Shown piece by piece: positions 371-57,275 of a DNA stretch of 63,115 nucleotides; position 1 is the stretch's first letter, and each line of letters begins with the position of its first letter. The stretch is taken from contig NZ_LMUQ01000021.1 of assembly GCF_009765865.1 (NCBI RefSeq), positions 1-63,115 of the forward strand, written 5' to 3'. Under the pieces are notes generated by a model, which saw only the letters and a list, made by a program, of their open reading frames with translations, searched no databases and was not told where the DNA came from. Made by a program: the position numbers and the translations under genes. Source of the stretch: Acidisoma sp. L85 (lineage in GTDB: Bacteria > Pseudomonadota > Alphaproteobacteria > Acetobacterales > Acetobacteraceae).

Positions 371-384
371 TTGATCTAAATCAA
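371..384 (+). promoter_or_regulatory. FixK/FNR box TTGATCTAAATCAA
   Basis: A perfect TTGAT-N4-ATCAA inverted repeat, the consensus of the FNR/FixK/ANR branch of Crp-family regulators. Its centre lies about 107 bp upstream of the proposed start of the receiver remnant at 485, and the histidine kinase at 955 follows on the same strand. It probably drove a receiver-kinase operon under low oxygen. Confidence 0.75.
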
Positions 385-484
385 AACCTGGAACGCCCGG
401 GTGGCGCACTACCCCGGTGCCGCTGTCGTGTTGACCAACGTCTAGGCCAACCCTGCAGAGGCAGAACGCTTTATCTGGGGGGCC

Positions 485-857
485 TTGCGTGGGGGGTTGC
501 GTGTCTTGCTCGTCGAGGACGATTACCTTGTCCGGCTGGTGGCCGGAGAGTTTCTCCGAGACGAGGGTTTTGAGGTCGAAGAGGCCTCTTCCGGTGACGA
601 GGCAGCTCTGCAGCTTGTCGGGCCGAGATTTTTTCATGTGTTGTTCACCGATGTCCAAATGCCAGGGAAATATGGATGGTGTCCACGTCGCGACCCACGC
701 CCGTGGCTTCCATCCAGCGATTATTCTAATCGTCGCGTCCGGGCTCGCGCCGCTCATCCACGACCGCCTCCAGGAGTTCCGTCCGGCCATCACCTTCTTT
801 CCTAAACCCTATCATATGTCCGAGATCGTCCGCACGATTAGGCGTCTGGCCGCGTAA
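485..857 (+). pseudogene. Stand-alone response-regulator receiver, frameshifted
   Basis: The first frame (TTG 485) gives a receiver N-terminus with LRVLLVEDDYLVRLVAGEFL and the phosphoacceptor motif LFTDVQMPG. The frame is lost at about 670-676, and the rest of the domain continues in the next frame from MDGVHVA to the FFPKPY motif with its conserved Lys, ending in RRLAA and a stop at 857. One extra base in the GGGAAAT run explains it: removing it restores PGNMDGV. The complete product would be a CheY/FixJ-N-like single-domain protein of about 123 residues. It lies just upstream of the histidine kinase, so they were probably partners. A sequencing error is possible. Confidence 0.75.
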
Positions 858-954
858 GGACCGGTCCACCCCAATCTGCGAGGGTGCTAGCCCGCCACGG
901 GTGACGTATCCACCTAAGGCCCTCACGAGCCAGGAGAGTAAGTGGAGCGTTTCG

Positions 955-2130
955 ATGGCTGATGTTGCCAAAGCCGCGATAGCTGCAAGCGCTCGAATTG
1001 ATGCGTTGCCGGTGATCCTCGATGTGATTTGCAGAACGACTGGCATGGGCTTCGTGGCAGTGGCCAGGGTAACTGACGATCGATGGATCGCGTGCGATCT
1101 GCTCGACCGGATCAATTTTGGTCTCAAGCCCGGCGGGGAGCTAAAGATCGAGACGACCATTTGCAGCGAAATCCGGCGCGACGCCGAGCCAGTCGTCACC
1201 GATCACGTTGACCTGGACCCGCGACATGGCCAGCACCACACACCTCGACTCTATGGTTTTCAAAGCTATATCTCCATGCCGATCGTCAGGGCCGATGGCT
1301 CAATGTTTGGTGCTCTCTGCGCAATCGATCCACAGCCTAGGCGGCTGAGTGCTTCTGCGACCGTAGCGATGTTCAAGGCGTTCTCGGACTTGATCGCCAG
1401 TCACCTCGATGCGCAGGACGACAGCGACGCTCGTGACAAGGAGCTGACCGACCAACGCCATAACGCCGAGTTGCGGGAGCAGTTCATTGCCGTGCTCGGT
1501 CATGATCTTCTAAATCCGCTCGCCGCGATCGACGGCGGGATCAAGCTGCTGGCCAAACGGCCACTTGACGACAAAGCTGTCGTTATCATCAAGCTGATGC
1601 AAGAAAGCGCGACGCGGATGAGCGGCCTCATCGATAGTGTTCTAGACTTCGCGCGCGGGCGCCTGGGTAACGGCATCGCTCTGGAGCGCGCCTCCAGCGC
1701 TTCATTAGTGCCGTTGCTTGAGCTGGTCGTTGCAGAGCTACGGACGGCATGGCCTGATCGTGCCATCGAAACCGATTTCACGATCTACCAGCCCGTCTCA
1801 TGTGACCCCGAACGTGTCGCTCAGTTATTCTCCAACCTATTGGCGAATGCCATTACGCACGGCGCGGCCGATGCCGCGATCCGGACGAAAGCCTGGACAC
1901 ATGGCGGCTTCTTCGAGTTGTCGGTCGCCAATTCGGGTGAGCCAATCCCCCTAGCGGCAATGGAGCATCTGTTCCAGCCATTTTACCGCAACTCACTACG
2001 CCCAACTCAGCAAGGGCTCGGCCTGGGGCTGTATATCGCCTCAATGATCGCTCCGGCGCATGGCGGCAAAATAGACGTCACATCTATCCCAGCTGAAACA
2101 CGCTTCACGTTTCGCATGCCCATCATTTAG
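955..2130 (+). CDS. GAF-domain sensor histidine kinase
   Basis: A predicted soluble sensor kinase of 391 residues. Residues about 13-155 form a GAF domain of the type ending FGALCAIDP. A HisKA dimerisation/phosphoacceptor helix follows with His183 in LGHDLLNPL, then a HATPase domain with N box QLFSNLLANAITHG and G box GLGLGLYIA. No membrane segment is seen. ATG 955 is preferred because GGAG lies 7 nt upstream; GTG 901 would add 18 residues. It follows the frameshifted receiver and shares its FixK/FNR box, suggesting a two-component pair whose receiver is now broken. The ligand of the GAF domain is unknown. Confidence 0.88.
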   Translation: MADVAKAAIAASARIDALPVILDVICRTTGMGFVAVARVTDDRWIACDLLDRINFGLKPGGELKIETTICSEIRRDAEPVVTDHVDLDPRHGQHHTPRLYGFQSYISMPIVRADGSMFGALCAIDPQPRRLSASATVAMFKAFSDLIASHLDAQDDSDARDKELTDQRHNAELREQFIAVLGHDLLNPLAAIDGGIKLLAKRPLDDKAVVIIKLMQESATRMSGLIDSVLDFARGRLGNGIALERASSASLVPLLELVVAELRTAWPDRAIETDFTIYQPVSCDPERVAQLFSNLLANAITHGAADAAIRTKAWTHGGFFELSVANSGEPIPLAAMEHLFQPFYRNSLRPTQQGLGLGLYIASMIAPAHGGKIDVTSIPAETRFTFRMPII

Positions 2131-3813: not shown

Positions 3814-5346
<1,533 letters not shown>

Positions 5347-5553
5347 TCAAACTTGCACTCACTCGGTTACAAGGTCGATGAGTTGCTCCACATCAAAGCA
5401 GTTAGTCGGGATGCGCCGCGATCGCATTAGCCCGCCACTTGGCAACGCCGACGCCATCGGAGGCGTCCGCCCGGCGGACTGCCGGATAGGCCGCCGCTTA
5501 GCGGGCGGATGGCAGACCGACAACACGACTACGGCACCGCCAGCCAACCTTGA

Positions 5554-5567
5554 TTGATACAGATCAA
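5554..5567 (-). promoter_or_regulatory. FixK/FNR box TTGATACAGATCAA
   Basis: A perfect TTGAT-N4-ATCAA palindrome about 230 bp upstream of the CoA-transferase start. It could also serve the rightward phosphoglycerate kinase remnant at 5739. The 5332-5738 stretch holds no other recognisable feature. Confidence 0.7.
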
Positions 5568-7036: not shown

Positions 7037-7050
7037 TTGATCGAGATCAA
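7037..7050 (+). promoter_or_regulatory. FixK/FNR box TTGATCGAGATCAA
   Basis: Perfect palindromic consensus, about 122 bp before the start of a truncated CBS gene at 7166. The operator has survived although the gene has not. Confidence 0.7.
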
Positions 7051-7165: not shown

Positions 7166-7321
7166 GTGAAGATGCGACAATTGAACCTAGAGCATTCAAC
7201 TGCCGCTCAGGTGATGAGCAAGGAACCGCTGACCGTTACGGGCGAGACTTCTCAGGTCCCCGCGATAGGTCTGATGATAGTGATTAGAATCAACGGTGTA
7301 CTTGGGGGTGGACGCCATTAG
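7166..7321 (+). pseudogene. Truncated CBS-domain protein
   Basis: GTG 7166 (or ATG 7172) opens a 51-residue frame with AAQVMSKEPLTVTGETSQV followed by GLMIVIRINGVLGGG and a stop at 7319-7321. This matches the first CBS motif of the neighbouring proteins (DIMT-EPLTV, then a helix, then NRVSGVPVVD) but is interrupted exactly where VPVVD should follow. The second CBS motif is not seen in the following 370 bp. AGAGG lies just upstream of the start, and a perfect FixK/FNR box is present. A short peptide could still be made, but the fold would be incomplete. Confidence 0.65.
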
Positions 7322-7697: not shown

Positions 7698-7711
7698 TTG
7701 ATCCGGATCAA
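7698..7711 (+). promoter_or_regulatory. FixK/FNR box TTGATCCGGATCAA
   Basis: Perfect consensus palindrome, its centre about 121 bp upstream of the universal stress protein gene starting at 7826. Confidence 0.75.
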
Positions 7712-7825: not shown

Positions 7826-8635
7826 ATGACGATCGCTAGCTTGATGGTCGAGGTCGATCTTGAGAGCGACAACAACGCGCTCCTGCGCTTCACCGCAGAC
7901 CTTGCGGGCCAGCACGGCGCATCAGTCATCGGTATCGCGGTACGCCAGCCTCACCAGATACTGTACGGCGATGGCTATGTGCCTATCCAAGTGCTTGAGG
8001 CCGAAGAATCTGAACTGGAGAAAAAGCTGGAGCGGGCAAGGGAACACTTTGAATCGGCGATGCACGGGCGAACTGAATCGTTCGCTTGGCGCTTCTCGAC
8101 TGTGCTCGGACCATCTTCCGAATACATTGTCCAACAAGCCCGCGCCGCTGATATTGTTATAGTTGGCAGCAGCCGCCGGCGGGCGGCGCTCCTTGGTGGT
8201 ATAGTGATCGGCGCCGGGCGACCTGTGCTCGTGGTCCCCAATGACCTTGAGGGGTCAAATCTGGATCGCGTTTTGATCGCCTGGAAGGATACGCGAGAGG
8301 CACGCCGCGTCACTCTCGATGCCATGCCATTTATCCGTAAAGCACGAGCAGTGGAAGTCATCGAGGTTGCACCACATGAAGACCGGGCGGATGCGGCATC
8401 TCGCTTGGAGGACGTCATTCTGTGGCTGAGGCGACATGGAGTTCAAGCTGAAGCTCAGGTTATATCTGCCTCGGGTGACAACGCCGCCCAGCTAACCGAC
8501 ATTGTGACCGAACATCATGCAAATCTGGTGGTCGCGGGTGGATACGGCCACAGCCGACTCCAAGAATGGATACTCGGGGGCGTCACCCGTAGTCTTCTGA
8601 CTGTGCCGAAGTGCTGCACCTTTTTGTCCCATTAG
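7826..8635 (+). CDS. Universal stress protein, tandem USP domains
   Basis: A 269-residue protein made of two UspA-like folds. The N-terminal domain ends in ADIVIVGSSRR and RPVLVVPND; the C-terminal domain starts DRVLIAWKDTREARR and ends NLVVAGGYGHSRLQEWILGGVTRSLL. The last segment corresponds to the nucleotide-binding loop G-x2-G-x9-G-S/T of ATP-binding USPs, in slightly altered form. No signal peptide is present, so it is cytoplasmic. Paralogues with the same WKD-REARR and GYGHS signatures are at 11692 and 21739. It is preceded by a perfect FixK/FNR box. Precise function unknown; the family is tied to stress survival. Confidence 0.93.
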   Translation: MTIASLMVEVDLESDNNALLRFTADLAGQHGASVIGIAVRQPHQILYGDGYVPIQVLEAEESELEKKLERAREHFESAMHGRTESFAWRFSTVLGPSSEYIVQQARAADIVIVGSSRRRAALLGGIVIGAGRPVLVVPNDLEGSNLDRVLIAWKDTREARRVTLDAMPFIRKARAVEVIEVAPHEDRADAASRLEDVILWLRRHGVQAEAQVISASGDNAAQLTDIVTEHHANLVVAGGYGHSRLQEWILGGVTRSLLTVPKCCTFLSH

Positions 8636-8756
8636 AATTCGTTGCGCGACCGATCGAAGGCGGCACTGCACAGTCAATCTCGCCGGACGATTGCTAAACG
8701 CTGCCACAAGTCGCTCGGCTTCAACTTGCCTCGGCGGGAGGTGGGAAGGTATAATC

Positions 8757-10190
8757 TTGACAGAGACCCGGTCCGACAATGAACGACCCGGAGCACGCGT
8801 AACAGGGTCCAGATCCGAGAGCCGCACGCTCCTTTGGCTTTGGCAGCTATCCTTTATTGTCGCCGTCACCGGTCCTATATTGGCGATCTCTATGGCGAGT
8901 GAAAGTCGCGGCGCCGAGAATGCATCGCCTCGTCAGCCTCAGACGACGTTGCACCTTCCGGACTTCAGTGCAGTTGTCGCTCGAGTGCGGTTATCAGTCG
9001 TGACCGTTACCGCTCTGGACCAGGATTCGTCCGACCCGGGAGCCGACGAGGATTCTACGGTGTCGCAACCCTCCGGCTCACTGCCTTTCGGCAACGGGCT
9101 ATCATTAAGCGGGGCTGCGGAAACACAGGCCTCTGGCTTCATAATCGGTGCCGATGGGACCATTCTCACCGACATTCGTGTCGTGCTCAATGCGTCGACG
9201 GCGCTGGTGACGCTTGATAGCGGTGCCGAGCTCTCTGCGCGGGTTCTCGGCCGCGACATCCGCAGCGGTATCGCGGTGTTGAAGGTAGAAGCGAGCAAGC
9301 CTCTCTTACCAGTCACTTTCGCCGACTCCTCCACGGCGAGGTCGGGCGAGTGGGTTGTCAGCATGGGCAACCCACTGGGGCTTGGTCCATCAGCAAATGC
9401 CGGCATCATCTCGGCGTTGGGCCGGAATACAGACGCCAGCCCCTACGATCAGCTCATTCGAATTGAGGCGCCGATGAATTCCGGCGACTCTGGCGGCCCC
9501 CTCTTCGACCAAGACGGCCGTGTGATCGGTGTAATGACGGCGATTTCGCTGCCACCAGTCGGCCCTTCCGGCGTCGGTTTCGCCGTCCCCTCAGAAATCA
9601 TCCGACCGATTGCGAGCGAGATTGAAGCAGTCGGCCATGTGGTGCGCGGCTATATTGGCGTGAGCTTACAAGCTCTGACGCCGGGCCTGTCGGAGGCGTT
9701 CGGCCTCGGAAGGGCTTCGGGAGCGTTGATCACGAAGGTCCAGGTGGATGGACCTGCGGCCGCCGCGGGCCTTCAGCCAGGTGACGTTATCCAGGCTCTT
9801 AATGGCAGACCAGTTCAGGCGCCACGGGATCTCGTGAGCGGCATAACGGCACTGAAACCGGGAGAGCGAGCAAGGCTAGACATTTTTCGGGGGCAGGGCG
9901 GCCAATTGGTGGTGCTGCGGGTAATCCAACTGCCGGACGATCGCGAACGGCACAAGCCGGTAGGCCAAGTCCGTCAGGAGGAGGAGCTTGGCCTAACATT
10001 CGAAGAGGTATCGTCGACGCTCGTCGAGCAACTGGGACTTCCACCCGGGACAAATGGCGCAGTCATTACGGAGGTGGAGCCGGGTTCACCGGGCGATGCC
10101 AGCGGGCTACAGGTGGGAGACGTCGTGGTCGGAGTTGGGTTGCGACCTGTGACAAACATGACAAAGCCGCACGCGCTATCCGCAGTGTAA
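8757..10190 (+). CDS. HtrA/DegP-like protein, catalytic His and Asp apparently lost
   Basis: A 477-residue S1C-family relative with an N-terminal membrane anchor or signal (LLWLWQLSFIVAVTGPILAI, about residues 25-45), a trypsin-like domain (about 120-290) and two PDZ domains (about 310-400 and 415-477). Aligned by eye to DegP, the Ser motif is intact (NSGDSGGPL, Ser245). The His motif TNNHVV reads TDIRVV (Arg141) and the Asp motif RSDIAL reads RSGIAV (Gly171), so proteolysis is not expected. The second PDZ ends early at HALSAV; a different frame from about 10170 to TGA 10298-10300 encodes the expected ending (SVREKNRTVILRI), so a frameshift shortened it. TTG 8757 is chosen for GGAAGG upstream; TTG 8691 is possible. 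Confidence 0.8.
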   Translation: MTETRSDNERPGARVTGSRSESRTLLWLWQLSFIVAVTGPILAISMASESRGAENASPRQPQTTLHLPDFSAVVARVRLSVVTVTALDQDSSDPGADEDSTVSQPSGSLPFGNGLSLSGAAETQASGFIIGADGTILTDIRVVLNASTALVTLDSGAELSARVLGRDIRSGIAVLKVEASKPLLPVTFADSSTARSGEWVVSMGNPLGLGPSANAGIISALGRNTDASPYDQLIRIEAPMNSGDSGGPLFDQDGRVIGVMTAISLPPVGPSGVGFAVPSEIIRPIASEIEAVGHVVRGYIGVSLQALTPGLSEAFGLGRASGALITKVQVDGPAAAAGLQPGDVIQALNGRPVQAPRDLVSGITALKPGERARLDIFRGQGGQLVVLRVIQLPDDRERHKPVGQVRQEEELGLTFEEVSSTLVEQLGLPPGTNGAVITEVEPGSPGDASGLQVGDVVVGVGLRPVTNMTKPHALSAV

Positions 10191-10300
10191 GGGAAAAAAA
10201 CCGTACAGTAATCCTCCGGATTATTAGCGAGGGTGAGGCGTCCTTCGTTACGGTCGACCCGAGCGAGACGTCGAACAAAAGTAACGGTGTCGCCCAATGA

Positions 10301-10728
10301 TCCCGCAACCCGTCGGGACAGACCGAAGGATTTGTGGGCAAGAAGATGTTACGCATAGGTATATACGCGGTCGACCAGAGTTGCAGCGGATAGCCTGGCT
10401 TAGCCCGAGTACTTTGGCCAGGCGATCGCGAGTATGCCCGAGCCTGCCTAATGACAGTCGAACATGTCGCGAGCTCCCCGCGATGTGCGGGTCTCCGTGC
10501 AACCCAGTTAAAAGCGATAGATCTAGAGATATAGGTGAGAAAATGTCGGAGCATCCCTCAACAAAGCCAGCCATTTGGTTGCTCAGAAAGCTCGCGCGCC
10601 AAACTGGCATCGTTAGGTCGATTAGCGCAGCCGTCGGAACAAAGATTGGTAAGGAAACATGGACGAACCCAGGTAGAACGCGGTCTGGACGATGCGCTAC
10701 GGCGTTTCCCGGTGGATTGGTTGACATC
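10301..10728. other. Stretch without a confident gene
   Basis: An open frame runs through here into the next gene and contains ATG 10543 with AGGTGAG upstream. Its encoded sequence is basic and unlike the secreted protein that follows, and a signal peptide would then be internal. No FixK/FNR box seen. Confidence 0.3.
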
Positions 10729-11127
10729 ATGCGCTCCGGCTTCAAATATCGGATGGGCCAACTTGGCATCGGATTTTGGCTAGTGATTGCGCCCTGTTCG
10801 GTTGCGTCGGCTCAGACTGTTGCGCTGCCGGTGCTTGCCTGGCCGGGCCTGACCCAAGATGATGTCAATCGCATGCATGCCTCGGCTGCAAGGCTCTATG
10901 AAGGGCGGTCGATTGGCACGGTGGAGCGGTGGCGCAGCCCCGGATCACGCGATGCGGGCGAGGCAAAGTTAGTCGCTAGCTTCGTCGCTGCCGGAATGCC
11001 CTGTAGGACTATCGATTACACGGTTCGATTTGAAACGGCTAGAAGTAGATTAGATCACTACGTCCTCAATTGGTGTCAGGTTTCAGGGGGTGCTTGGAAA
11101 GTGGTCGAACTAGCCCGAAAAAAGTAA
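10729..11127 (+). CDS. Secreted surface-antigen-like protein
   Basis: A 132-residue exported protein. ATG 10729 is followed by a basic start and hydrophobic core ending VASAQT, a good signal peptidase I site after about residue 30. The mature part has the pattern GTVERWRSPGSRDAGEAKLV...GMPCRTIDYTVRF...NWCQVSGGAWKVVE, resembling 17-kDa/RT0821-type surface antigen domains, with two Cys that could pair in the periplasm. The ribosome site at this start is weak; an upstream ATG 10543 in frame has a better one but would bury the signal. It precedes the cytochrome c'-like lipoprotein by about 75 bp. Confidence 0.65.
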   Translation: MRSGFKYRMGQLGIGFWLVIAPCSVASAQTVALPVLAWPGLTQDDVNRMHASAARLYEGRSIGTVERWRSPGSRDAGEAKLVASFVAAGMPCRTIDYTVRFETARSRLDHYVLNWCQVSGGAWKVVELARKK

Positions 11128-11140
11128 AGACAGCGCGGAG

Positions 11141-11158
11141 CTGAGTGATGTCGCTCAG
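11141..11158. repeat. Inverted repeat CTGAGtGAtgTCgCTCAG
   Basis: A near-perfect palindrome between the stop of the surface-antigen-like gene and the lipoprotein start at 11202. It has no T tract, so an operator is as likely as a terminator. It is not a FixK/FNR box. Confidence 0.3.
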
Positions 11159-11201
11159 TTCGTTTGCACCGCAGCGGATAATAGAAGTTGGAGTCCGTTC
11201 T

Positions 11202-11639: not shown

Positions 11640-11691
11640 CGCCACCAAAATCCAGATTTAAGATGAGGAAAGGGACTCGGGGGTATTACGG

Positions 11692-14217: not shown

Positions 14218-14231
14218 CTGATGTGCATCAA
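14218..14231 (-). promoter_or_regulatory. FixK/FNR box TTGATGCACATCAG
   Basis: Read on the minus strand, one mismatch from consensus, centred about 96 bp upstream of the triple BON gene. Confidence 0.6.
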
Positions 14232-46582: not shown

Positions 46583-46607
46583 CCCAATCTCCCGATCGAT
46601 TATCTGG

Positions 46608-47747
46608 CTATGCGACCAATTTGGTTGTCGTGATCAAGGTTTGAACGTGCTCATTCGCGATATGCCCCGCGCGGGTAAGCACCGTTCTACTTAGTACTTC
46701 ATCGTCCCAGTCGGGGCTCACTCTCTTGTCTTTTATGATCAGCTCGAGCAGACTGAGAATATTCTTGGCGTAAAGCTCGCTGGCGTGTTCGCCGAGAAGC
46801 GAAGGGACGTTCATCGGCGCGACGATCGTCACCTCCCCCACGCGGATGGTCTCGCCCGGCCTGGTGTATTCGCAGTTGCCGCCGCCTTCGGCCGCAAGGT
46901 CGACGATGACGGCGCCGGATTTCATGCCGTCGACCTGTAGCTTGCTAATCAATTTCGGCGATGATCGTCCAGGTACCGCCGCGGTAGTGATGATCAGGTC
47001 GGCTTGCTGGATGTGCTTGCTGAGAATGACCGCGACCTTGCTCTGTTCGTCTGCTGTCAGCTCTCGTGCATACCCGCCTTCGCCCCGTGCATCGAAGCCA
47101 GTATCGACGAACTTCGCACCGAGCGACGCCGCTTCCTCTTTTGTTTCGAGGCGCACGTCATAACCCTCGACGATCGCGCCGAGGCGGTGCGCCGTAGCGA
47201 GGGCCTGAAGGCCGGCGACGCCGAGGCCCATCACGAGCACTGTAGCGGCCCTAAGCGACCCGGCCGCAGTGGTCATTCTAGGGAGAATCCGGGCGAGATG
47301 TGTGGCCCCGAGCAGGACAGAGTAGTAGCCGCTCAAAGAGGCCTGACTGGATAGCGCGTCCATAGCTTGGGCCCGGCTTATGCGGGGAACCTGTTCCATG
47401 GCGAAACAGGTGATCGATTTATCTTGAAGCAACCTAACGAGGTCCGGTTGCCTCTGGGCATAGACGAAGGAGATAAGGATCGCTCCCGGTTTCATTGCCA
47501 GGACAATCTCGGCGGCCGGCGGCTGGACGCCGAGCACAATATCAGCGTCGCCGACCAGCGTCTTAGCGTCGGCGACAAACTTGACCTGACTAAAGGCGCT
47601 GTCCGGAAGTTTTACGGCTTCCCCGGCGCCCATTTGAATATATACTTCCGCGCCAAGCTTCATCAGCTTGGCAAGAAGGCTAGGAACCATCGCAACACGA
47701 CGCTCGTCCGGCGTGGTTTCCTTCAGGACGGCTACTTTGATTGGCAT
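46608..47747 (-). CDS. pntA1: NAD(P) transhydrogenase subunit alpha, NAD-binding part
   Basis: A 379-residue soluble domain I. It starts KVAVLKETTPDERRVAMVP, typical of the alanine dehydrogenase/PntA family, and contains the RISRAQAMDALSSQASLSGYYSV segment and the NAD-binding glycine motif VMGLGVAGLQALATAHRLGA. ATG 47747 with GGAG upstream is chosen over the open frame extending to 47912. It lies about 195 bp after the aldehyde dehydrogenase gene on the same strand, possibly one long transcript. Confidence 0.95.
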   Translation of the reverse strand: MPIKVAVLKETTPDERRVAMVPSLLAKLMKLGAEVYIQMGAGEAVKLPDSAFSQVKFVADAKTLVGDADIVLGVQPPAAEIVLAMKPGAILISFVYAQRQPDLVRLLQDKSITCFAMEQVPRISRAQAMDALSSQASLSGYYSVLLGATHLARILPRMTTAAGSLRAATVLVMGLGVAGLQALATAHRLGAIVEGYDVRLETKEEAASLGAKFVDTGFDARGEGGYARELTADEQSKVAVILSKHIQQADLIITTAAVPGRSSPKLISKLQVDGMKSGAVIVDLAAEGGGNCEYTRPGETIRVGEVTIVAPMNVPSLLGEHASELYAKNILSLLELIIKDKRVSPDWDDEVLSRTVLTRAGHIANEHVQTLITTTKLVA

Positions 47748-47941
47748 GGTGCGCTCCGTCAATTTTCTCGACAATGTTGCCGTAAATGGGCCGGGCGCAG
47801 CGCAGCTCTGCCCCTTTGGACCTTCGCGCCATCTCCGCCGCCGCCAGGGCTCACTTTGCTTGAGACCGGAGCCCCCGCTGGAGCCCCTTCCTGTGGCACG
47901 ATCCAGCACCACAGGAAGGCAGAGACCTAGGCGATCACGCC

Positions 47942-49333
47942 TCAGAATTCGGCGTCGATATCGACGACATCAATCAGCTTGTGATTGACGAACTCTTTAA
48001 TACCAAGTCCGAGCAGTTCACGACCGTACCCGGAGCGGCGAATACCGCCGAAAGGGAGGTCGGCTTTGACCATAGTCGGATGGTTTACGAACACCATGCC
48101 TGTCGAAATTTTCTCGGCCACCTCCGCGCCATGCTTAACATCCGAGGTGAAGACGGAACCACCTAGGCCAAAAGGCGAGTCATTGGCGATGCGCAGGGCA
48201 TCCTCTTCGTCCTTGGCACGGAACAGCATGGAAACCGGACCGAAAAATTCCCAATAGCGCGCAGGGTTCTCTTCGCTGACATCTGTTAGAATCGTCGGTT
48301 GGACAAAGGCTCCTCGGTTTGGCACCTTGGGGCCAACTTCGGTTGCCTTAGCGCCGTGTGCGGCCGCCCGTCGGATCTTGTCCTTCAAGTCGTCGGCGGC
48401 TCCCTGCGACGACAATGGTGCTAACGTCGTCTCGGCATCGAACGGATCGCCCGCGCGCAGCCCTGCGACACCGACAGTATAGCGTTCAAGGAACCGATCG
48501 TAGATTTCATCGACGATGATCATGCGTTTGGAGGACACGCAGACTTGTCCCCCATTCCAATGACGGCCGAAGACGGCCCATTTGACTGTTTTTTCTAGAT
48601 CGGCATCGGCGAGTACCACAAACGCGTCTGCCCCGCCGAGCTCCATCGTAGACTTTTTCAAGGCTTTGCCTGCTTGAGCAGCGATGATGGCACCTGCCTC
48701 TTCCGACCCAGTGAGTGCCACGCCACGAACGCGTGAGTCGTTGAGGATAAGCTCGACCTGCGAACGCGTGGCATACAGATTCTTAAAAGCCCCTGCAGGC
48801 AGACCCGCATCGCGCATCAGCTGCTCGAAAGCTGCGGCACTCTGGGGCACGTTCGAAGCGTGCTTGAGCAACATCGTGTTCCCGGCAGAGAGCTGTGGCG
48901 CGATGATGCGAGCAATCTGATAATATGGGAAATTCCAGGGTTCTATGGCGAGCAACACACCGAGCGGATCATGAACGAGCATCGCCTTGCCTTCCGCCGG
49001 ATTGCCCACGGGTAGCTTTTCCGGGGCTAGCAGGGCTTCGGCGTGCTGGGCGTAGTATTCAAAAATATTTGCCGAAAGCTCGACTTCTGCTTTCGCCTCA
49101 GCGAAGAGCTTGCCCATCTCAAGGGTTAGAGTCTTAGCGTAGGTGTCGACTTCCTTTCGCAGGAGGCTGGCAGCAGCATGCATGATCTCCGCGCGTGCGG
49201 AAAAAGGAGTCTTCTTCCAAGATAGAAACGCAGCGTGCGCGTCCGCTATGGCTTGTGCGACTTCATTATCACTGGCGTTCGGAAACGTTTTCAGGACATC
49301 ACCTGTGTAAGGGTTTGTACTGGCATATGTCAT
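47942..49333 (-). CDS. NAD(P)-dependent aldehyde dehydrogenase, succinate-semialdehyde type
   Basis: A 463-residue aldehyde dehydrogenase. It has the EPWNFPYYQ motif, the general base Glu in MELGGADAFVV, and the nucleophile Cys in NGGQVCVSSKR. The C-terminal PFGGIRRSGYGRELL is intact. Length and motifs place it near succinate-semialdehyde dehydrogenases (GabD1/Sad type), but the substrate cannot be fixed by eye. It is preceded by a FixK/FNR-like box and followed by the pnt genes, which suggests linked NAD(P)H balancing. Confidence 0.93.
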   Translation of the reverse strand: MTYASTNPYTGDVLKTFPNASDNEVAQAIADAHAAFLSWKKTPFSARAEIMHAAASLLRKEVDTYAKTLTLEMGKLFAEAKAEVELSANIFEYYAQHAEALLAPEKLPVGNPAEGKAMLVHDPLGVLLAIEPWNFPYYQIARIIAPQLSAGNTMLLKHASNVPQSAAAFEQLMRDAGLPAGAFKNLYATRSQVELILNDSRVRGVALTGSEEAGAIIAAQAGKALKKSTMELGGADAFVVLADADLEKTVKWAVFGRHWNGGQVCVSSKRMIIVDEIYDRFLERYTVGVAGLRAGDPFDAETTLAPLSSQGAADDLKDKIRRAAAHGAKATEVGPKVPNRGAFVQPTILTDVSEENPARYWEFFGPVSMLFRAKDEEDALRIANDSPFGLGGSVFTSDVKHGAEVAEKISTGMVFVNHPTMVKADLPFGGIRRSGYGRELLGLGIKEFVNHKLIDVVDIDAEF

Positions 49334-49429: not shown

Positions 49430-49443
49430 TTGATTTGGATCAC
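49430..49443 (-). promoter_or_regulatory. FixK/FNR box, TTGATTTGGATCAC on the plus strand
   Basis: One mismatch from consensus, centred about 103 bp before the aldehyde dehydrogenase start. The rest of the 49334-49833 gap holds a second weaker site (49769) and no gene. Confidence 0.6.
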
Positions 49444-49768: not shown

Positions 49769-49782
49769 TTGATCTGGCGCAA
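49769..49782 (+). promoter_or_regulatory. Half-conserved FixK/FNR site TTGATCTGGCGCAA
   Basis: The left arm is perfect and the right arm has two mismatches. It lies 58 bp (centre) before the alcohol dehydrogenase start, the same spacing as the better boxes. Confidence 0.4.
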
Positions 49783-49833: not shown

Positions 49834-50907
49834 ATGACGAAAACGATGAGAGCCGCGGTTGTTCACTCCTTCGGCAAGCCACTGGTGATCGAGGATGTCC
49901 CGATACCTGTGCCCGGGCCGGGCGAGCTACTCGTGAAAGTCATTGCCTGCGGCGTATGCCATACCGACCTTCACGCCGCTGAGGGCGATTGGCCGGTGAA
50001 GCCTGTGCCGCCGTTCATTCCGGGCCACGAGGTGGCGGGTGTGGTGGCCGCTATTGGGCCTGGCGTAAGTGATTTCAAAGAGGGCGATCCGGTCGGTGTC
50101 GCGTGGCTCCATGACGCCTGCATGCGCTGCGAATACTGCGAGACCGGTTGGGAGACGCTCTGCGAGCACCAGCACGACACCGGCTATAGCTGCGACGGCG
50201 GCTTTGCCGAATACGTCATCGCCTCGGCAGCCTTCGTGGCCCGTCTTCCGGTTGGCGTCGATTTCGCGCAGATCGCGCCGATTCTGTGTGCGGGTGTCAC
50301 AACGTACAAGGGCCTAAAGGAGACCGAGGCCCGTCCGGGCGAGTGGGTCGCTATTTCAGGCGTCGGCGGTCTTGGTCACGTTGCAATCCAGTACGCCAAG
50401 GCCATGGGGCTTAAAGTCGTCGCGCTCGATGTGACCCCTGAGAAGCTTGCTTTGGCGCGCACAACAGGTGCGGACGTAGCCGTCAACGCTCAGTCGCCGG
50501 ATGCGGTCGCCGAGGTTCTAAAGGCGACGGACGGCGGAGCGCATGGGATTCTTGTGACAGCCGTTTCGCCGCCAGCTTTCTCGCAGGCGCTGCATATGGT
50601 GCGACGTAAGGGTACGATCGCGCTCGTCGGCCTGCCGCCCGGCGAGTTTCCGACGCCAATTTTCGATGTAGTACTAAAACGCATCACCTTGCGTGGGTCA
50701 ATTGTCGGCAGCCGTCGCGACCTCGACGAAGCGATCGTCTTCGCGATGGAGGGCAAAGTAAAGGCCGAGATTACCAGGGCACCGCTCGGTGACATCAACA
50801 AAATTTTCTCGCAACTCAAAGCGGGCAGGGTTGAAGGCCGTATGGTACTGGATTTCACGGCGCCACTGGAGACGTCAGTGAAGGAACCGGAAGTCGCGTA
50901 TGCATAA
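49834..50907 (+). CDS. Zinc-dependent alcohol dehydrogenase (AdhP-like)
   Basis: A 357-residue MDR enzyme. Catalytic zinc ligands are in CGVCHTDLHAAEGDW and PGHEVAG; the structural zinc Cys cluster is CMRCEYCETGWETLC; the NAD-binding motif is GVGGLGHVAIQYAKAMG. It resembles ethanol-active AdhP/AdhA enzymes that regenerate NAD under low oxygen. GGAAAGGG precedes ATG 49834. A weak FixK/FNR site lies upstream. Confidence 0.94.
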   Translation: MTKTMRAAVVHSFGKPLVIEDVPIPVPGPGELLVKVIACGVCHTDLHAAEGDWPVKPVPPFIPGHEVAGVVAAIGPGVSDFKEGDPVGVAWLHDACMRCEYCETGWETLCEHQHDTGYSCDGGFAEYVIASAAFVARLPVGVDFAQIAPILCAGVTTYKGLKETEARPGEWVAISGVGGLGHVAIQYAKAMGLKVVALDVTPEKLALARTTGADVAVNAQSPDAVAEVLKATDGGAHGILVTAVSPPAFSQALHMVRRKGTIALVGLPPGEFPTPIFDVVLKRITLRGSIVGSRRDLDEAIVFAMEGKVKAEITRAPLGDINKIFSQLKAGRVEGRMVLDFTAPLETSVKEPEVAYA

Positions 50908-51079
50908 GTTCGCCCGATGACTTGCGAGCATTCCCGATCGTAGCTGACGGCACGTTCGTGTGCTTGAGTGTCGGCGGCCAAGGAGTCACGCAGCGCTCTG
51001 CAGAGACCGATCGTAGCCCTGCTTCAGTTGGCGCGATCGGTCAAGAGCCCAATGGAATAGCCGATGTGCGAAGGTCAGC

Positions 51080-52063
51080 ATGAGAGCAATGGTCTTGAGA
51101 GCGATCGGCCAACCTTTACGTCTAGAAAGCCGCCCTGACCCCTTGCCGAGTGCCGGGGAAATTCGGGTGCGCGTCGAGGCCTGCGCGGTTTGCCGGACGG
51201 ACCTCCACGTGATTGACGGCGAATTGCCAGACCCGAGGCTGCCCATTGTTCCGGGTCATGAGATCGTCGGAATCGTAGAAGCCCTGGGAGAAAATGTGTC
51301 GCAGCCGGCGCTCGGCACCCGCGTGGGCATTCCCTGGCTCGGGCATACTTGCGGTCATTGTCCCTACTGCAATGCGGGACGGGAAAACCTCTGCGATAAG
51401 CCAGCCTTCACCGGGTTTACCCGTGACGGCGGCTTCGCGACCCATGTGGTGGCAGATGCCGCCTTTGCTTTCCCTCTCATTGGCTTTGACAATCCCGTCG
51501 CGGCCGCTCCGCTGATGTGTGCCGGCTTGATCGGGTGGCGATCTCTCCGAATGGCCGGGGACGGACTCAGAATCGGCCTCTACGGCTTCGGCGCCGCCGC
51601 TCACATCCTGGCACAAGTATGCAGATGGCAGGAGCGGCAGGTCTATGCATTCACACATGCCGGAGACGCAGTTGCGCAGGAGTTCGCCGCAAAGCTCGGC
51701 GCTTGCTGGACGGGAAGCTCGGAGGAAAGACCTCCTGAAGAGCTGGACGCAGCGATAATCTTCGCCCCGGTCGGCGCGCTGGTACCGAACGCGCTCCTTT
51801 CGGTGCGGAAGGGGGGGCGAGTCGTCTGTGGAGGAATCCACATGAGCGACATCCCGCAGTTCCCATACAGCTCGCTCTGGGAAGAACGTCAGCTGGTTTC
51901 TGTGGCCAATTTAACCAGGCAAGACGCGCTGGAATTCCTAGCGATCGCGCCACAGGCGGCAGTCAAAACGGTGACGACGGTCTACCCCCTCGAACGAGCC
52001 AACGAGGCGCTCGCCGATCTGCGGGCCGGCCGATTTCAAGGCGCAGCAGTCCTGGTTCCATAA
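51080..52063 (+). CDS. Zinc-dependent alcohol dehydrogenase family protein
   Basis: A 327-residue MDR enzyme distinct from its neighbour. Catalytic zinc motifs CAVCRTDLHVIDGEL and PGHEIVG and the structural cluster CGHCPYCNAGRENLC are complete. The nucleotide loop is GLYGFGAAAHILAQV, so Gly-x-Gly-x-x-Ala rather than the usual GxGxxG. Slightly shorter than AdhP. AAGGT precedes ATG 51080. It follows the first alcohol dehydrogenase by about 170 bp. Substrate unknown. Confidence 0.92.
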   Translation: MRAMVLRAIGQPLRLESRPDPLPSAGEIRVRVEACAVCRTDLHVIDGELPDPRLPIVPGHEIVGIVEALGENVSQPALGTRVGIPWLGHTCGHCPYCNAGRENLCDKPAFTGFTRDGGFATHVVADAAFAFPLIGFDNPVAAAPLMCAGLIGWRSLRMAGDGLRIGLYGFGAAAHILAQVCRWQERQVYAFTHAGDAVAQEFAAKLGACWTGSSEERPPEELDAAIIFAPVGALVPNALLSVRKGGRVVCGGIHMSDIPQFPYSSLWEERQLVSVANLTRQDALEFLAIAPQAAVKTVTTVYPLERANEALADLRAGRFQGAAVLVP

Positions 52064-52428: not shown

Positions 52429-54351
52429 TCAAACCTGACCGTCAAGAAGCTCCCGAATGCGAACAGCTAGCTCACCGGCGGTATAGGGTTTTTTCAACCA
52501 GTTACTCGCCGGGGCCAGTTCGCGTCTGCCGGCGCGGCCTTCCGAATATCCGGAGGTCAAAAGGATTTTGATATCTGGACGGGTCGACCGCACCTCCTTT
52601 GCCAGTTCGTCACCGGTTATGTCTCCGGGCATGACGACATCGGTGAAGAGCAGCTTGATTTCAGGACGGGAGGAAAGCAAGCTCAGCGCCTCAGCGCCGT
52701 TCATTGCTTCGATGACACTATAGCCCATTTCTGTTAGCCGCGAGACGGCAACGCGGCGGACGCGTGCGTCGTCTTCGACAACAAGAATCGTTTCGGTGCC
52801 GCCAGGCATCTTCTCTCGCCTGCGAATGGTCGTCTCCGGGTCGTCGCCGCTGCGGGCCTGACTAGCAGGGGCAGGGGGAAGAAACAGCCGCACGCTGGTG
52901 CCCATGCCAGGCTCGCTGCTGAGTTGGATGTGCCCGCCGGACTGCTTGACGAAGCCATAGACCATGCTGAGGCCAAGGCCAGTACCCGCGCCCACATCCT
53001 TCGTAGTGAAGAATGGCTCGAACGCATGCTTTCTCACCTCGTCGGACATTCCGGTCCCAGTATCGGTAACGGAGATTGACACATAGTTTCCAGTGCGTGC
53101 CTCAGGATGCATTTGTGCATAAGCGGTATCAAGCCGCGTCGCCGAAAGTTCCACTGTAAGCTTCCCACCACGCGGCATGGCAGAGCGAGCGTTCAAAGTG
53201 AGATTGAGAAGGGCATTTTGCAGTTGCGACGGGTCCACGAGCACCTGATGTGTAGAGCCTGAGACGATGGTGCATAGCTCAATTGCCTCCCCAAGAGTTC
53301 GCCGCAGAAGATCGGAGAAGCTGAGTATGAGCTGACCAACATTGATCAACTGCGGATGGAGCGACTGGCGCCGCCCGAAGGCCAATAATTGCTCAGTCAG
53401 CTTCGCCCCATCACTCGCGGCATCTTGAGCCTCGCGTACAAGCAAACCGAGTTCTTTGCTGTCGACCCGGCTCTCAATCATCTCAAGATTGCCGCTGATG
53501 ACCGTCAAAAGATTATTGAAGTCGTGGGCGATGCCACCCGTCAATTGTCCAACGGCCTCCATCTTATGAGCTTGACGGAGCTCCTCTTCGATTTTGTGTC
53601 GGCTGGTGAGATCGCGAATGAAACCTGTAAAAATGCGGTTGCCGCTCGTTACCGCCTCGCCGATCGCTAGTTCCATAGAGAAATGGGTGCCATCTTTGCG
53701 AAGACCGGTGACGACACGCCCATAGCCAATTATGCGCCGCTCTCCGGTTCTCAGATAGTGCGAGAGATAGCCGTCATGAGCATCGCGATCTGGCTGTGGC
53801 ATCAAGATGCGAACATTCTGCCCTAGTATCTCCGTAGTCTCGTAGCCGAACAGCCGTTCTGCAGCAGCGCTGAAAGAGCTTATCTTGCCGGCTTCATCGA
53901 TCACCACCATCGCCTCTGGCAGGGTTTCCAAGATCGACCGCAGATGTGCTTCCCTGGTGATGAGGTCAATCTGCGTTTGCTTTAGGGCAGTTACGTCGAC
54001 GTTAGTCTCGACGATCGCGAAGCCCGACGGGTCCTCCGACAACACCGCCACCCAACGGCTGGCAACGAAGATCGCTCGTCCGTCCTTGTGCCGGTGCGTG
54101 AGCTCGCCCTTCCAAATGTCACTATCGCGTAAATGGGCGCGGATGCTTTCGAGGGGTTCTAGGAAATCGGTCTCCAAAAACTCGTGAACAATCCGACCGA
54201 CTGCCTCCTCGCGGCTCCATCCGTAAAGCTCCTCGCACCCAGTGGTCCAACGGCTGATTACGCCGTCAAAGCCGTGAACGATGATGTTGGCGCTGTCGAG
54301 AATGCGGACAATTTCATCAAGGCTGTGGCCGCTAGTGACCTTTGACTTCAA
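52429..54351 (-). CDS. FixL-like haem-PAS hybrid histidine kinase with receiver
   Basis: A 640-residue soluble kinase: PAS1 (about 10-125), PAS2 (about 132-255), HisKA with His276 in GGIAHDFNN, HATPase (G boxes DTGTGM and [11 protein letters not shown]), and a C-terminal receiver (about 520-640) with Asp571 in [10 protein letters not shown] and Lys in KKPYT. PAS2 closely follows Fix[36 protein letters not shown], and FTGFIRDLT. The haem ligand His200 of B. japonicum FixL corresponds to His192 and the distal Arg220 to Arg212; Arg206 and His214 correspond to His and Arg. This predicts oxygen sensing by haem. The gene precedes nothing downstream and lies 17 bp after the FixK-like gene. Confidence 0.93.
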
Positions 54352-54368: not shown

Positions 54369-55139
54369 TTATTGTGCCGTGTAATACTCAGGCCATACGG
54401 CTCGCCGTATCGAATTAGTTTCGTCGGAAGCGTACCCCACGTCGCCCTCGCCGGCAAGCACCAGGAGCTTCGCCAGCCTTTTTATAACAACGGCATGGCG
54501 CCCCGTCGGGGCGATAACGCCACAAGTCGTCAGCTTCGTCATCGTACGTGATACCGTTTCGATCGTGAGACCGAGATAATCGGCCATGTCCTGGCGCGTC
54601 ATCGGCAGCTCTATAACAGGCTGCTCCTGCTGCTCCCGGCGCAGCCGCCGCATTATGACGAGCAGGAAGCTGCTGACACGTTCTTCAGCACTTTTGCGTG
54701 CCAGGAGCACCATCTGGTCTTGTGCGGCCGCCATTTCGTCGCAGAGCTGGGCAAAGAGTTGGGGACGAAGGTCGGGGGAATGGTTGATCTCATCTTGAAA
54801 CCGAGTGCGCCCGAAGCGGCGGACTCTTGCCGTTGTTACCGCCTCGGCGGTATAAAGGTAGCTGTCTCGGAGAGAAACACCGAGGAGATCGCCGGGATAC
54901 ACGAAGCCCGTAATGACCCTGCGGCCGTCGCTCATAATCTTAAATATCCGCAGGACCCCTTCCGTGACGGCGAAGACATGACTTGCAGTATCGCCTTCCC
55001 AAAATACCGCCGATCCGGCCTCGAATCGTTCTGCCATCTGTTTGCTGAAAAGCTCTTCGATGGTCGACGGTTGATGGCAGGGGGGCGCGAAATCCGCGAC
55101 GACCCGGGTTTGCCGTGACATCGCACTTTCCGTGAACAT
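54369..55139 (-). CDS. FixK/FNR-type transcription regulator (Crp family)
   Basis: A 256-residue Crp/Fnr protein with an N-terminal cyclic-nucleotide-like barrel ([23 protein letters not shown]...[10 protein letters not shown]) and a C-terminal winged helix whose recognition helix reads [12 protein letters not shown]. The Glu and Ser/Arg in E-x-VSR are those of FNR/FixK proteins that read TTGAT-N4-ATCAA. The cysteine cluster needed for an FNR iron-sulfur centre is absent, as in FixK. ATG 55139 has AGAGG upstream; ATG 55121 is possible. Candidate activator for the boxes throughout the window. It is encoded directly upstream of the haem-PAS kinase. Confidence 0.92.
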
Positions 55140-55173
55140 TGGCGACCTCTTTCCCGCGTGTTGACGCGGGCAG

Positions 55174-55187
55174 TTGAGCCAGCTCAC
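55174..55187 (-). promoter_or_regulatory. Weak FixK/FNR-like site TTGAGCCAGCTCAC
   Basis: Three mismatches from TTGAT-N4-ATCAA. It lies about 40 bp upstream of the FixK-like start and could allow weak autoregulation, but chance is possible. Confidence 0.25.
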
Positions 55188-55278
55188 GTGACGGCGTAAC
55201 GATGGCAGTGTTCTCGTTGGTGCGAGATTGTGACGGACTGTAACATGGGGAGAGACGCGCTGGTCTCCAAAATTAGAC

Positions 55279-56007
55279 GTGGCTGAACCACAGACCCGCT
55301 CCGAGCATGTTCTCGTCGTGGACGACGATGCGCGTATTCGTCAAATGCTCACTCGTTACCTTGAGGAGCAGGGCTATCGGGTCACAGGGGTCGCGGACGG
55401 CCAAGCTATGCGAGAATTCTTACGAGACACCGTGGTCGACATCATCCTGCTTGACCTTGTCCTGCCCGGTGAAGACGGCCTGGGTTTAGCCCGCTGGGTC
55501 AGGTCACTTTCCGACGTGCCGATCATGATGCTGACCGGCCGCGACGATGTCATTGACCGGATCGTTGGACTGGAGATCGGCGCCGACGACTATATCGCCA
55601 AGCCGTTCCATCTGCGGGAGGTGCTGGCGCGATTGAAGACCGTCCTCCGTCGCCGGCAACCTCCAACATCGTCGAACCGAGCCGAAGATAGAGATGTTTT
55701 TCGGTTCGAAGGCTGGGTTCTAGATTTGGGGCGGCGACAACTGCTCACCAGCGATGGCTTGGAAGTTGTCCTCACGACCGGGGAGTTCGATATGCTGGTC
55801 GCGTTAGCAAAACATCCGGGACGAGTATTCTCGCGGGAGGTGCTCATGGACCTGACACACGGAAGAACATTGGAAGCATTCGACAGGACAATAGATGCAC
55901 AAATCGCGCGGCTGCGAAAAAAAATAGAACAAGATGTGAAGAGGCCAATGCTCATAAAATCAGTGAGAGGTATCGGCTACGTCTTCACGGGCAAACCGAT
56001 CATCTGA
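55279..56007 (+). CDS. OmpR-family response regulator
   Basis: A 242-residue regulator: receiver (about 10-125) with acidic pocket VVDDDAR, phosphoacceptor Asp59 in LLDLVLPGEDG, and Lys in AKPFHLRE; then a winged helix (about 145-238) with GEFDMLVALAKHPGRVFSREVLMDL and RTIDAQIARLRKKIE ending in RGIGYVF. The GTG start at 55279 has only a weak ribosome site. It is transcribed away from the FixK-like gene. No dedicated OmpR-type kinase is adjacent, so its partner may be the hybrid kinase or lie elsewhere. Confidence 0.93.
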   Translation: MAEPQTRSEHVLVVDDDARIRQMLTRYLEEQGYRVTGVADGQAMREFLRDTVVDIILLDLVLPGEDGLGLARWVRSLSDVPIMMLTGRDDVIDRIVGLEIGADDYIAKPFHLREVLARLKTVLRRRQPPTSSNRAEDRDVFRFEGWVLDLGRRQLLTSDGLEVVLTTGEFDMLVALAKHPGRVFSREVLMDLTHGRTLEAFDRTIDAQIARLRKKIEQDVKRPMLIKSVRGIGYVFTGKPII

Positions 56008-56020
56008 ATACCATAGGTTC

Positions 56021-56491
56021 TCAATCTTTAGCTGAGGTGTGTCCGTTCAGGATTATCACCAGACCATGATCGCGCCGGTCAATCTCCAGATCGCCAAGAT
56101 CAGGCATGCACCTATCCTGCCACAGCGTCCAGACGCGGATTGTGTCACAGGCTTCCCTTTTTGCGAGCGCTTTTAGGTGTCGGAGAAGATCGGTTGCGAC
56201 GCCAGCTTCATCGGCAACGCTAGTTATAACGAAGAATGACACATCCAGCATCCGGTCATGCAAAAGATGTCTTCTGACGGCACAAAGGCATAATCCTTGG
56301 ACGTACCCGACGGGGTTTACCGCGACGACAATGTCGTCCTGGTCGTCACCGTGGAAGCTGGAAACCAGCCTCTCCTCGCAAAGCGCCCGCCAATTCTCAA
56401 GATCAAGCTTGGGCACAAGAGGATGGACTAGAAGGTAGGCTGGATCAATCTGCTCTCTAGCTATACGGCCGACGTTGTAGGTGACAGGCAT
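56021..56491 (-). CDS. Uncharacterised protein, possibly GNAT-fold
   Basis: A 156-residue protein converging on the response regulator gene, with 13 bp between stops. The layout (HPLVPKLDLENWRALCEERL, VNPVGYVQGLCLCAVR, VSFFVITSVADEAGVATDLLRHLKALA) is suggestive of a GNAT acetyltransferase: a strand, then a helix after a loop at the acetyl-CoA position. The diagnostic R/Q-x-x-G-x-G/A loop is not convincing. AAGGAG lies 8 nt before ATG 56491. Confidence 0.75.
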   Translation of the reverse strand: MPVTYNVGRIAREQIDPAYLLVHPLVPKLDLENWRALCEERLVSSFHGDDQDDIVVAVNPVGYVQGLCLCAVRRHLLHDRMLDVSFFVITSVADEAGVATDLLRHLKALAKREACDTIRVWTLWQDRCMPDLGDLEIDRRDHGLVIILNGHTSAKD

Positions 56492-57261
56492 CGTTGGTGC
56501 TCCTTATCGTCCTCCTTTAAGGTCCGGCTAAAGTCCTAGATGTGATCCAGCGCAAACCAACCCCTAAATGTCGAATAAACAAGGACGTGAGGTTCTACCG
56601 CGCGAGAAAGGATTCGAAATTTAACGCCGCGAGCACCGGAGCCCGGACGGGGTCGTCGAGGACAGCGTCGGTTGAGCAAGGAAGGTTGTGCGCAGGAAGC
56701 GGGCCTTCCTAATACACTTCGCTACGCGGTCGCACCGGATCGGCTTCGCTTGTGACTAGCCGGGTGAAGCCGGTCTCTGGATCAGCCAAGATCTAGGCGG
56801 CCCAAGCTGGCTAACCGACGTCGGCTAGGTGGAACGACATGACGAAGGTTCTCGACGAGTCGTGGTGCCGGCGGGGATCGCCGCAAGCGTGGGATGAGGC
56901 GGCCCAGAGGCGCTACACCGCTGTCAGAGGGAAGGTCTCCGCCCGGGAAACAGTTGAATGACGGGGACGTGAAACCGTGCTCGTGACATCCTCCGGCCGC
57001 CTTGATTAGGACCTGGGACTAGCCTCTCCAGCCCTGGTTGGAGCTCTGGCTCAGGCGATAGAGCAGCAGGGCGGACCGCGCTAAGGGGTGATGGTCGGAA
57101 GCGATTTCTGACCGTTGGCGGCGACGGTCGGCCGCGCTTTGAAGATAGTGGGGGCAACTTGAAGCCTTACGGGCGATCCAGCGGCGATCAAATCCTCATC
57201 TCTGCGACTGGGGAAGGCCAACCTCAAGACGTCGCCAAAAATAACTGTGGAAGCGAACAAT
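56492..57261. other. Long non-coding stretch, possibly structured RNA
   Basis: About 770 bp with no convincing gene. From about 56689 it holds GTGCGCAGG followed by many short complementary GC-rich arms (for example GCCGGGTGAAGCCGGTC) and a GAACGACATGACGAAGG segment. This is reminiscent of group II intron domain I, but no reverse transcriptase or domain V was recognised here. Could be a truncated intron fragment. Confidence 0.25.
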
Positions 57262-57275
57262 TTGATATGAATCAA
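57262..57275 (+). promoter_or_regulatory. FixK/FNR box TTGATATGAATCAA
   Basis: Perfect consensus palindrome, centred 62 bp upstream of the small gene at 57331. Confidence 0.75.

Follow-up and report, generated by a model that had tools for sequence, protein, structure and literature searches.

Can a complete low-oxygen regulon, together with the switch that governs it, be packed into one short piece of a bacterial genome? The question is raised by a stretch of 63,115 nucleotides from Acidisoma sp. L85 (Acetobacteraceae; RefSeq assembly GCF_009765865.1, contig NZ_LMUQ01000021.1), hereafter the window, along which the palindrome TTGAT-N4-ATCAA (the box) recurs and which a first-pass annotation had read as a single FixK/FNR hypoxia regulon. 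The window comprises bases 1-63115 of contig C40 and makes up 1% of a genome of 6,376,414 bp in 85 contigs. The low-oxygen reading was supported both by the density of the boxes and by a FixK cascade encoded in the window, and we consider it highly probable that the window is a low-oxygen island with its own switch, probably acquired horizontally, in which control would run from hFixL through FxkR and FixK to the boxes and so to the units of the island.

Boxes with no or one mismatch were regarded as strong and those with two or three as weaker. All 13 strong boxes in the first-pass annotation were confirmed at their coordinates, including five perfect ones (371, 5554, 7037, 7698, and 57262) and eight with one mismatch (12795, 14218, 14350, 21255, 28083, 30886, 39370, and 49430), and four further one-mismatch sites had been overlooked (2324, 5383, 7280, and 22910), among which 2324, inside a small open reading frame (ORF), is probably a chance site. 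The four weaker sites fared unequally: 28005 and 49769 carry two mismatches, while 5661 and 55174 carry three, are indistinguishable by sequence from chance sites, and were left out of the box counts (55174 overlaps the annotated fixK start). Site 49769 is better supported, because in three Bosea loci the homologous alcohol dehydrogenase (ADH) gene is preceded at 54 bp by a one-mismatch box, against 52 bp in the window. The boxes and the genes they precede are as follows.

371..384, perfect, ~100 bp upstream of a receiver-domain ORF whose frame is broken (485-857)
5383..5396, one mismatch, 52 bp before the CoA-transferase gene
5554..5567, perfect, 223 bp before the CoA-transferase gene
7037..7050, perfect, in a degenerate stretch, no convincing target
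7280..7293, one mismatch, no convincing target
7698..7711, perfect, 115 bp before a USP gene, inside an ORF judged spurious
12795..12808, one mismatch, 55 bp before the gene of a CBS protein (12863-13333)
14218..14231, one mismatch, 54 bp before the gene of a BON protein (13481-14164, minus strand)
14350..14363, one mismatch, between the BON (186 bp) and APH-AAA (377 bp) genes
21255..21268, one mismatch, 176 bp upstream of the permease gene in the arginine deiminase cluster, within an ORF judged spurious
22910..22923, one mismatch, 323 bp before a USP gene (21739-22587, minus strand)
28083..28096, one mismatch, 55 bp before the gene of a CBS protein (28151-28630), within the 5' end of an HlyD ORF judged over-extended
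30886..30899, one mismatch, 63 bp before the BON, CBS-BON, lipoyl, and phosphoketolase genes (30962-35461)
39370..39383, one mismatch, between cydA (78 bp) and cydD (35 bp)
49430..49443, one mismatch, 97 bp before the aldehyde dehydrogenase gene
49769..49782, two mismatches, 52 bp before an ADH gene
57262..57275, perfect, upstream of a small ORF (57331-57585, at 55 bp) and of a DUF1003 gene (at 400 bp)

These boxes were strongly concentrated in the window. Five of the eight perfect boxes of the genome fell within it (binomial P = 5e-9), as did 17 of the 151 boxes with at most one mismatch, where 1.49 were expected (binomial P = 3e-13); this corresponds to ~60 and ~11 times the genome mean, respectively, so the density claimed in the first-pass annotation held against the genome background. 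A 400-kb background drawn from 20 places in the same genome contained no perfect and five one-mismatch boxes, and the whole genomes of four congeners contained 6, 11, 4, and 6 perfect boxes. That the boxes arose by chance or from base composition could draw on the window being richer in A+T than the genome sample, yet 19 other palindromes built from the same five letters gave 0 to 4 sites in the window compared with 17, spacers of 0 to 10 other than 4 gave 0 to 6, and 200 second-order Markov shuffles of the window averaged 1.8 with a largest value of 6. A chance origin was rejected on these controls, and we leave it next to no probability.

The placement of the boxes points in the same direction as their number. 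Only 1 of 17 boxes lay inside curated genes, which cover 77% of the window, and in an uncurated test 6 of 17 lay inside mechanically called ORFs, which cover 86% (P = 2e-6), while in the background comparison 4 of 5 boxes were inside mechanical ORFs; the curated list drops ORFs judged spurious around boxes 371, 7698, 21255, 28083, and 57262. Thus, the window boxes avoid genes. The statement that almost all boxes lie 40 to 230 bp before a start codon proved roughly right: seven are found at 35 to 63 bp (5383, 12795, 14218, 28083, 30886, 39370, and 49769, joined by 57262 at 55 bp if the ORF at 57331 is real) and seven at 78 to 223 bp (39370 on its cydA side, 49430, 371, 7698, 21255, 14350 on its BON side, and 5554), with 22910 farther out at 323 bp and 7037 and 7280 lacking a convincing target. 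Moreover, a -10-like element was found 18 to 23 nucleotides past the box in the direction of the gene, this being the best TATAAT match of 16 offset bins. For the 17 boxes of this set (those with at most one mismatch, minus 2324 and plus 49769), the mean match was 3.18 of 6 compared with 2.42 for random intergenic positions and 2.41 in the opposite direction (P = 0.0012, an optimistic value, as the offset range was picked after a first look and box directions were assigned by us). An activator centred at -41.5 has the class II geometry, and the observed offset is near what such an activator would need.

Which regulator might read these boxes is suggested by a group of genes toward the right end of the window.

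52429..54351, minus strand, hFixL, hybrid kinase with PAS-PAS-HisKA-HATPase-receiver architecture
54369..55187, minus strand, FixK of the Crp/Fnr family, recognition helix ETVSR, cysteines only at 6, 37, 149, and 222
55229..55244, minus strand, K-box GTTACA-N4-GTCACA (predicted FxkR site), upstream of fixK, between fixK and fxkR
55279..56007, plus strand, FxkR, OmpR-family response regulator, beside fixK

The closest match of the window FixK in the PDB was FixK2 (4i2o, E = 9e-33), and its true start is probably downstream of the annotated GTG. The protein has no CxxC or four-cysteine iron-sulfur cluster and carries an FNR-type recognition helix, the combination by which FixK proteins are recognized in the accessible portions of PMC2908626. 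Sequence features likewise mark the kinase as a candidate hFixL, which should possess a heme-PAS ligand histidine, a distal arginine, and a C-terminal receiver: its second PAS domain aligned with the solved heme-PAS domain of FixL, with the proximal histidine and distal arginine kept. The residues concerned, His192 (codon 53776-53778) and Arg212 (53716-53718), align with His200 and Arg220 of FixL. The K-box, GTTACAGTCCGTCACA, differs by one mismatch from the Rhizobium FxkR motif GTTACA-N4-GTTACA, and FxkR is stated to bind the K-box in Rhizobium in the available text of the papers that supply this motif (PMC4999443 and PMC7888657). K-boxes with at most two mismatches preceded fixK in 79 of 80 relatives, compared with 11 of 3,118 control windows.

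The designation FixK/FNR could thereby be narrowed: its FixK half stood, with a VSR-type FixK in the window, and its FNR half did not, since neither a CxxC motif nor an FNR-type protein was found. A search of the genome with PF13545 (HTH_Crp_2) returned two strong matches, at 65.0 and 64.3 bits, with the next at 28.3; the second strong match is a Crp-like protein on contig C37 with ESVNKQL in its recognition helix, no CxxC, and no VSR-type helix. Minus-strand Crp matches were judged by bit score, and the C37 protein additionally by its own sequence. By this search, the window FixK appears to be the only VSR-type FNR/FixK regulator of the genome, and no FnrN was found. FNR control was rejected, as the window regulator and the other strong Crp-type match both lack CxxC. 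A variant of this idea, in which an FNR/ANR-type protein encoded elsewhere reads the boxes and the window FixK is incidental, could appeal to the near identity of FNR, FixK, and DNR sites (in the same portions of PMC2908626) and to a genome completeness of 99.5%, at which one such gene could be missing; with only two strong PF13545 matches, neither of them with CxxC, we consider it very unlikely. Hence a FixK regulon under a rhizobial-type hFixL-FxkR-FixK cascade, rather than an FNR or DosR regulon, is the assignment supported by these predicted proteins and sites.

According to the proposed mechanism, the heme-PAS hybrid kinase hFixL would sense a fall in oxygen and signal to the OmpR-type FxkR, which would bind the K-box between fxkR and fixK and turn fixK on. 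FixK would then bind the boxes upstream of the promoters of ~10 island units and switch on the bd oxidase, the arginine deiminase pathway, phosphoketolase, the alcohol and aldehyde dehydrogenases, transhydrogenase, CoA-transferase, and the USP, CBS, and BON proteins, a set that may serve survival at low oxygen. Pfam scans took in 60 ORFs of the window, and the cargo genes comprise the following.

3814..5331, minus strand, acetyl-CoA hydrolase/transferase
7826..12525, plus strand, USP (7826-8635), DegP-like protease, unnamed ORF, weak cytochrome c' match, and USP (11692-12525)
14740..16374, plus strand, APH-AAA protein (the Rv2004c-like protein of the first-pass annotation)
16394..21079, minus strand, carbamate kinase-like protein, ornithine carbamoyltransferase, arginine deiminase, and amino-acid permease
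22971..28157, minus strand, HlyD/ABC exporter (two permeases, double ATPase, and HlyD)
33074..35461, plus strand, phosphoketolase
36552..39292, minus strand, cydAB, cytochrome bd oxidase
39418..42710, plus strand, cydDC-type ABC exporter, named from its position beside cydAB
44835..49333, minus strand, transhydrogenase genes pntB, pntA2, and pntA1 with the aldehyde dehydrogenase gene
49834..52063, plus strand, two zinc alcohol dehydrogenases
56021..56491, minus strand, unnamed 156-amino-acid protein, homologous to proteins encoded at relatives' FixK loci

The BON, CBS-BON, lipoyl, and phosphoketolase genes (30962-35461) probably form one operon; a small protein with a lipoyl/biotinyl domain (32631-32927) is encoded directly 5' of phosphoketolase. 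The 156-amino-acid protein had no Pfam or NCBIfam match, and its homologues occurred at 29 places in FixK loci of relatives (29 to 59% identity), 8 of them with an upstream box.

Comparison with relatives indicated that the boxes recur before homologous genes. In a survey of 80 FixK loci (pRL9 counted once; many loci are close kin, so that the counts are not independent), a box lay upstream of the homologues of CBS-BON in 13 of 16 cases, USP in 8 of 12, cydA in 6 of 10, phosphoketolase in 5 of 9, ADH in 5 of 12, cydD in 4 of 8, APH-AAA in 3 of 7, and BON in 2 of 4, compared with 188 of 4,800 random windows. No upstream box was found for the regulators hFixL (0/78) and FxkR (0/74) or for cydB (0/11), the second gene of its operon, and fixK itself was preceded by one in 5 of 80 loci. 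Four genomes were compared over the 60 kb that surround FixK: Bosea psychrotolerans, with 16 boxes, and Rhizobium sp. BK313, with 13, have many genes in common with the window, whereas Kaistia hirudinis (1 box) and Neorhizobium galegae (2 boxes) possess the regulators and lack most of the cargo. Box density therefore tracks the cargo, and the island is a recurrent one. hFixL, FxkR, and FixK also occur together in loci of Bosea, Ancylobacter, Kaistia, and Methylovirgula; the part available of a study by Tsoy et al. places the hFixL-FxkR-FixKf cascade in the ancestor of the Rhizobiaceae.

How such a cluster came to be in an Acidisoma genome was addressed by the FixK phylogeny and by the contig ends. 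In the FixK tree, the window sequence grouped with three Bosea rows (support 99/89) at no more than 70% identity and on a long branch (0.33). At E ≤ 1e-60, only the genome itself yielded a FixK match in the samples taken at the level of genus (5 members), family (299), order (395), and class (385); none came from the 4 congeners, the 298 other family members, or the 394 other order members. The samples are nevertheless thin, because the class sample should hold some Hyphomicrobiales and yet none matched; the case for transfer therefore rests on the family and order samples together with the tree. Vertical inheritance followed by loss in the sampled relatives would suit samples that are partial, as well as a class sample without another match, but the grouping with Bosea and the absence of FixK at this threshold from every other sampled member of the genus, family, and order make it improbable. 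In addition, the nearest plasmid relatives differ by gene (cydB, Sphingomonas, 72%; APH-AAA, Chelatococcus, 53%; integrase, Skermanella, 68%), and the island may therefore be a mosaic.

The ends of the contig carry repeats and mobile elements.

1..106, end repeat of ~95 bp that recurs at 99% identity on five other contigs
63020..63115, end repeat, 100% identical to C13:9465-9560
59139-60521, minus strand, group II intron reverse transcriptase
60741-60911, minus strand, group II intron D1-D4
61099-61962, plus strand, tyrosine recombinase

The end repeats match, among others, the first bases of C11, C45, and C26. These repeats bear on whether the contig stems from a contaminating Bosea- or Rhizobium-like organism, in which case the concentration of boxes would be uninformative on the host. 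Such an origin would fit the G+C content of 58.6% in the window versus 62.6% in the 400-kb background (single stretches, 55.6 to 66.9%), a contamination estimate of 2.67, and the absence of FixK from four of four congeners. However, both ends share ~95-bp repeats at 99 to 100% identity with other contigs, as would be seen for a genome broken at shared repeats, and the closest FixK row is only 70% identical. A genuine place in the Acidisoma genome is favoured because of the shared end repeats, and we judge contamination unlikely.

Global regulators usually have sites spread over the genome. Against this background, the concentration on one repeat-bounded contig, the absence of this FixK from the sampled kin of the host, and the recurrence in Bosea and Rhizobium are less expected. 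They would accord with a portable regulon, whose sensor, relay, activator, operators, and targets are packed together and travelled jointly into a lineage without FixK/FNR, where the circuit would largely spare host genes; the same block, its cargo varying, would be the one seen again in Bosea and Rhizobium. We give this reading even chances. Several observations weigh against an island controlled as a unit and acquired from outside. Upon inspection of the window, boxes 7037, 7280, and 22910 had no well-placed gene. Upstream boxes in the relatives were rare for the CoA-transferase (0/2), exporter ATPase (0/3), and aldehyde dehydrogenase (1/5) homologues. At distances of up to 10 kb from FixK, the window is ordinary, with 1 of the 8 perfect boxes, compared with 13 of 213 in 18 relatives. 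The 385-genome class sample without another strong FixK match makes absence from the samples weak evidence of foreign origin, and the branch that the window occupies in the FixK tree is long. Three perfect boxes are located elsewhere in the genome; two of them fall within genes, but one, on contig C10, stands 102 bp before an inorganic pyrophosphatase gene. Finally, the rest of the genome has 134 sites with no more than one mismatch, of which few were inspected, and the regulon may therefore extend beyond the window. The perfect box on C10 (L099:3983) stands on a contig of 16.5 kb that carries an rve-domain (transposase-like) gene. On contig C7 (L103), one-mismatch boxes at 8060 and 8097 lie 37 bp apart between ORFs, with a third 1.7 kb further; no nearby start codon was found.

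Among described systems, the closest is hFixL-FxkR-FixK of Rhizobium leguminosarum/etli, including plasmid pRL9 of R. johnstonii 3841, which, as far as the published portions at hand describe it, combines the same three protein kinds, the K-box before fixK, and the anaerobox TTGAT-N4-ATCAA. Like the window, pRL9 18047-59534 contains adhP, CoA-transferase, USPs, an APH-AAA protein, an HlyD/ABC exporter, and 9 boxes with at most one mismatch. Unlike the window, it holds just 3 of the 14 perfect boxes of its genome (5 of 8 here), and R. johnstonii 3841 is described in the same portions as having cbb3 oxidase, hemN, and two fixK genes on pRL9 and FnrN elsewhere; the window in turn has the bd oxidase, arginine deiminase, and phosphoketolase, with no FixO or FnrN found in its genome. 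The canonical rhizobial FixK regulon targets fixNOQP, whereas a search of the Acidisoma genome for the cbb3 oxidase subunit FixO gave no match, and this classical target therefore seems to be missing.

The window cargo also agrees with the alphaproteobacterial FixK regulon predicted by Dufour et al. (2010; PMC2908626), which, in the text available, includes phosphoketolase, CBS proteins, HlyD plus ABC exporter, cytochrome c, zinc alcohol dehydrogenase, and a kinase, with several members reported as FixK2- or FixK-dependent. According to the accessible text of PMC6515984, USPs and CBS proteins are among those that Bradyrhizobium diazoefficiens raises at low oxygen and encodes under near-consecutive gene numbers. 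As these two sources present them in those portions, the FixK/FixK2 regulons differ from the window in being driven by FixLJ and in having cbb3 oxidase among the low-oxygen genes, and arginine deiminase and bd oxidase, both found in the window, are not among the members given there.

The DosR regulon of mycobacteria is under heme-based kinases, and its regulator class and box differ from those of FixK. The likening of the island to it holds as a functional analogy only; membership was rejected, with no LuxR-type Pfam match among the 60 ORFs scanned. The portions available of PMC6127331 describe DosR as a hypoxia programme rich in USPs (10 in 48 genes) and already draw the analogy for the lxa locus of Burkholderia cenocepacia. 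In what could be consulted of PMC6127331 and PMC9733578, lxa resembles the window in gene content, gathering in one place ~50 genes raised at low oxygen, including USPs, BON, cytochrome c, and zinc alcohol dehydrogenase; it differs in that BCAM0049, its proposed regulator, is encoded outside the range BCAM0275-BCAM0323 and that this text describes no FixK cascade within the locus. The island is thus known in kind from rhizobial FixK regulons and pRL9, with lxa as an analogue. None of the titles and abstracts found, in a search that left out many journals, described a single island that gathers a FixK regulon and the cascade governing it. With 5 of 8 perfect sites and the regulator on one repeat-bounded contig, the locus allows whole-regulon transfer and function as a unit to be tested. 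Moreover, the K-box plus box density is a suggested route to further such islands, and USP, CBS, BON, and APH-AAA proteins gain a context as FixK companions in several genomes.

Similar cargo was also found with few boxes or none. A Sphingomonas plasmid (L127:15053-28816) carries cydDC-cydAB-cydX-Crp/Fnr-GAF-ALDH-adhP-CoA-transferase, that is, similar cargo with another regulator gene; there were 2 one-mismatch boxes in 41 kb at this plasmid cluster and 2 on Sphingomonas pISP1, and none in the Chelatococcus stretch around the APH-AAA gene. Within the window, the stretch between the CoA-transferase and USP genes (5666-7300), where boxes 7037 and 7280 lie, holds no convincing genes; its fragments look receiver- or CBS-like by eye only, and three of them had no match when scanned against Pfam. 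Beside the group II intron, ~100 bp (59046-59146) recur at 99% identity on C8 and C59. The receiver-domain gene at 485-857 is broken over two frames, and similar DNA occurs on C14 (79%), C46 (70%), and C60 and C73 (67%).

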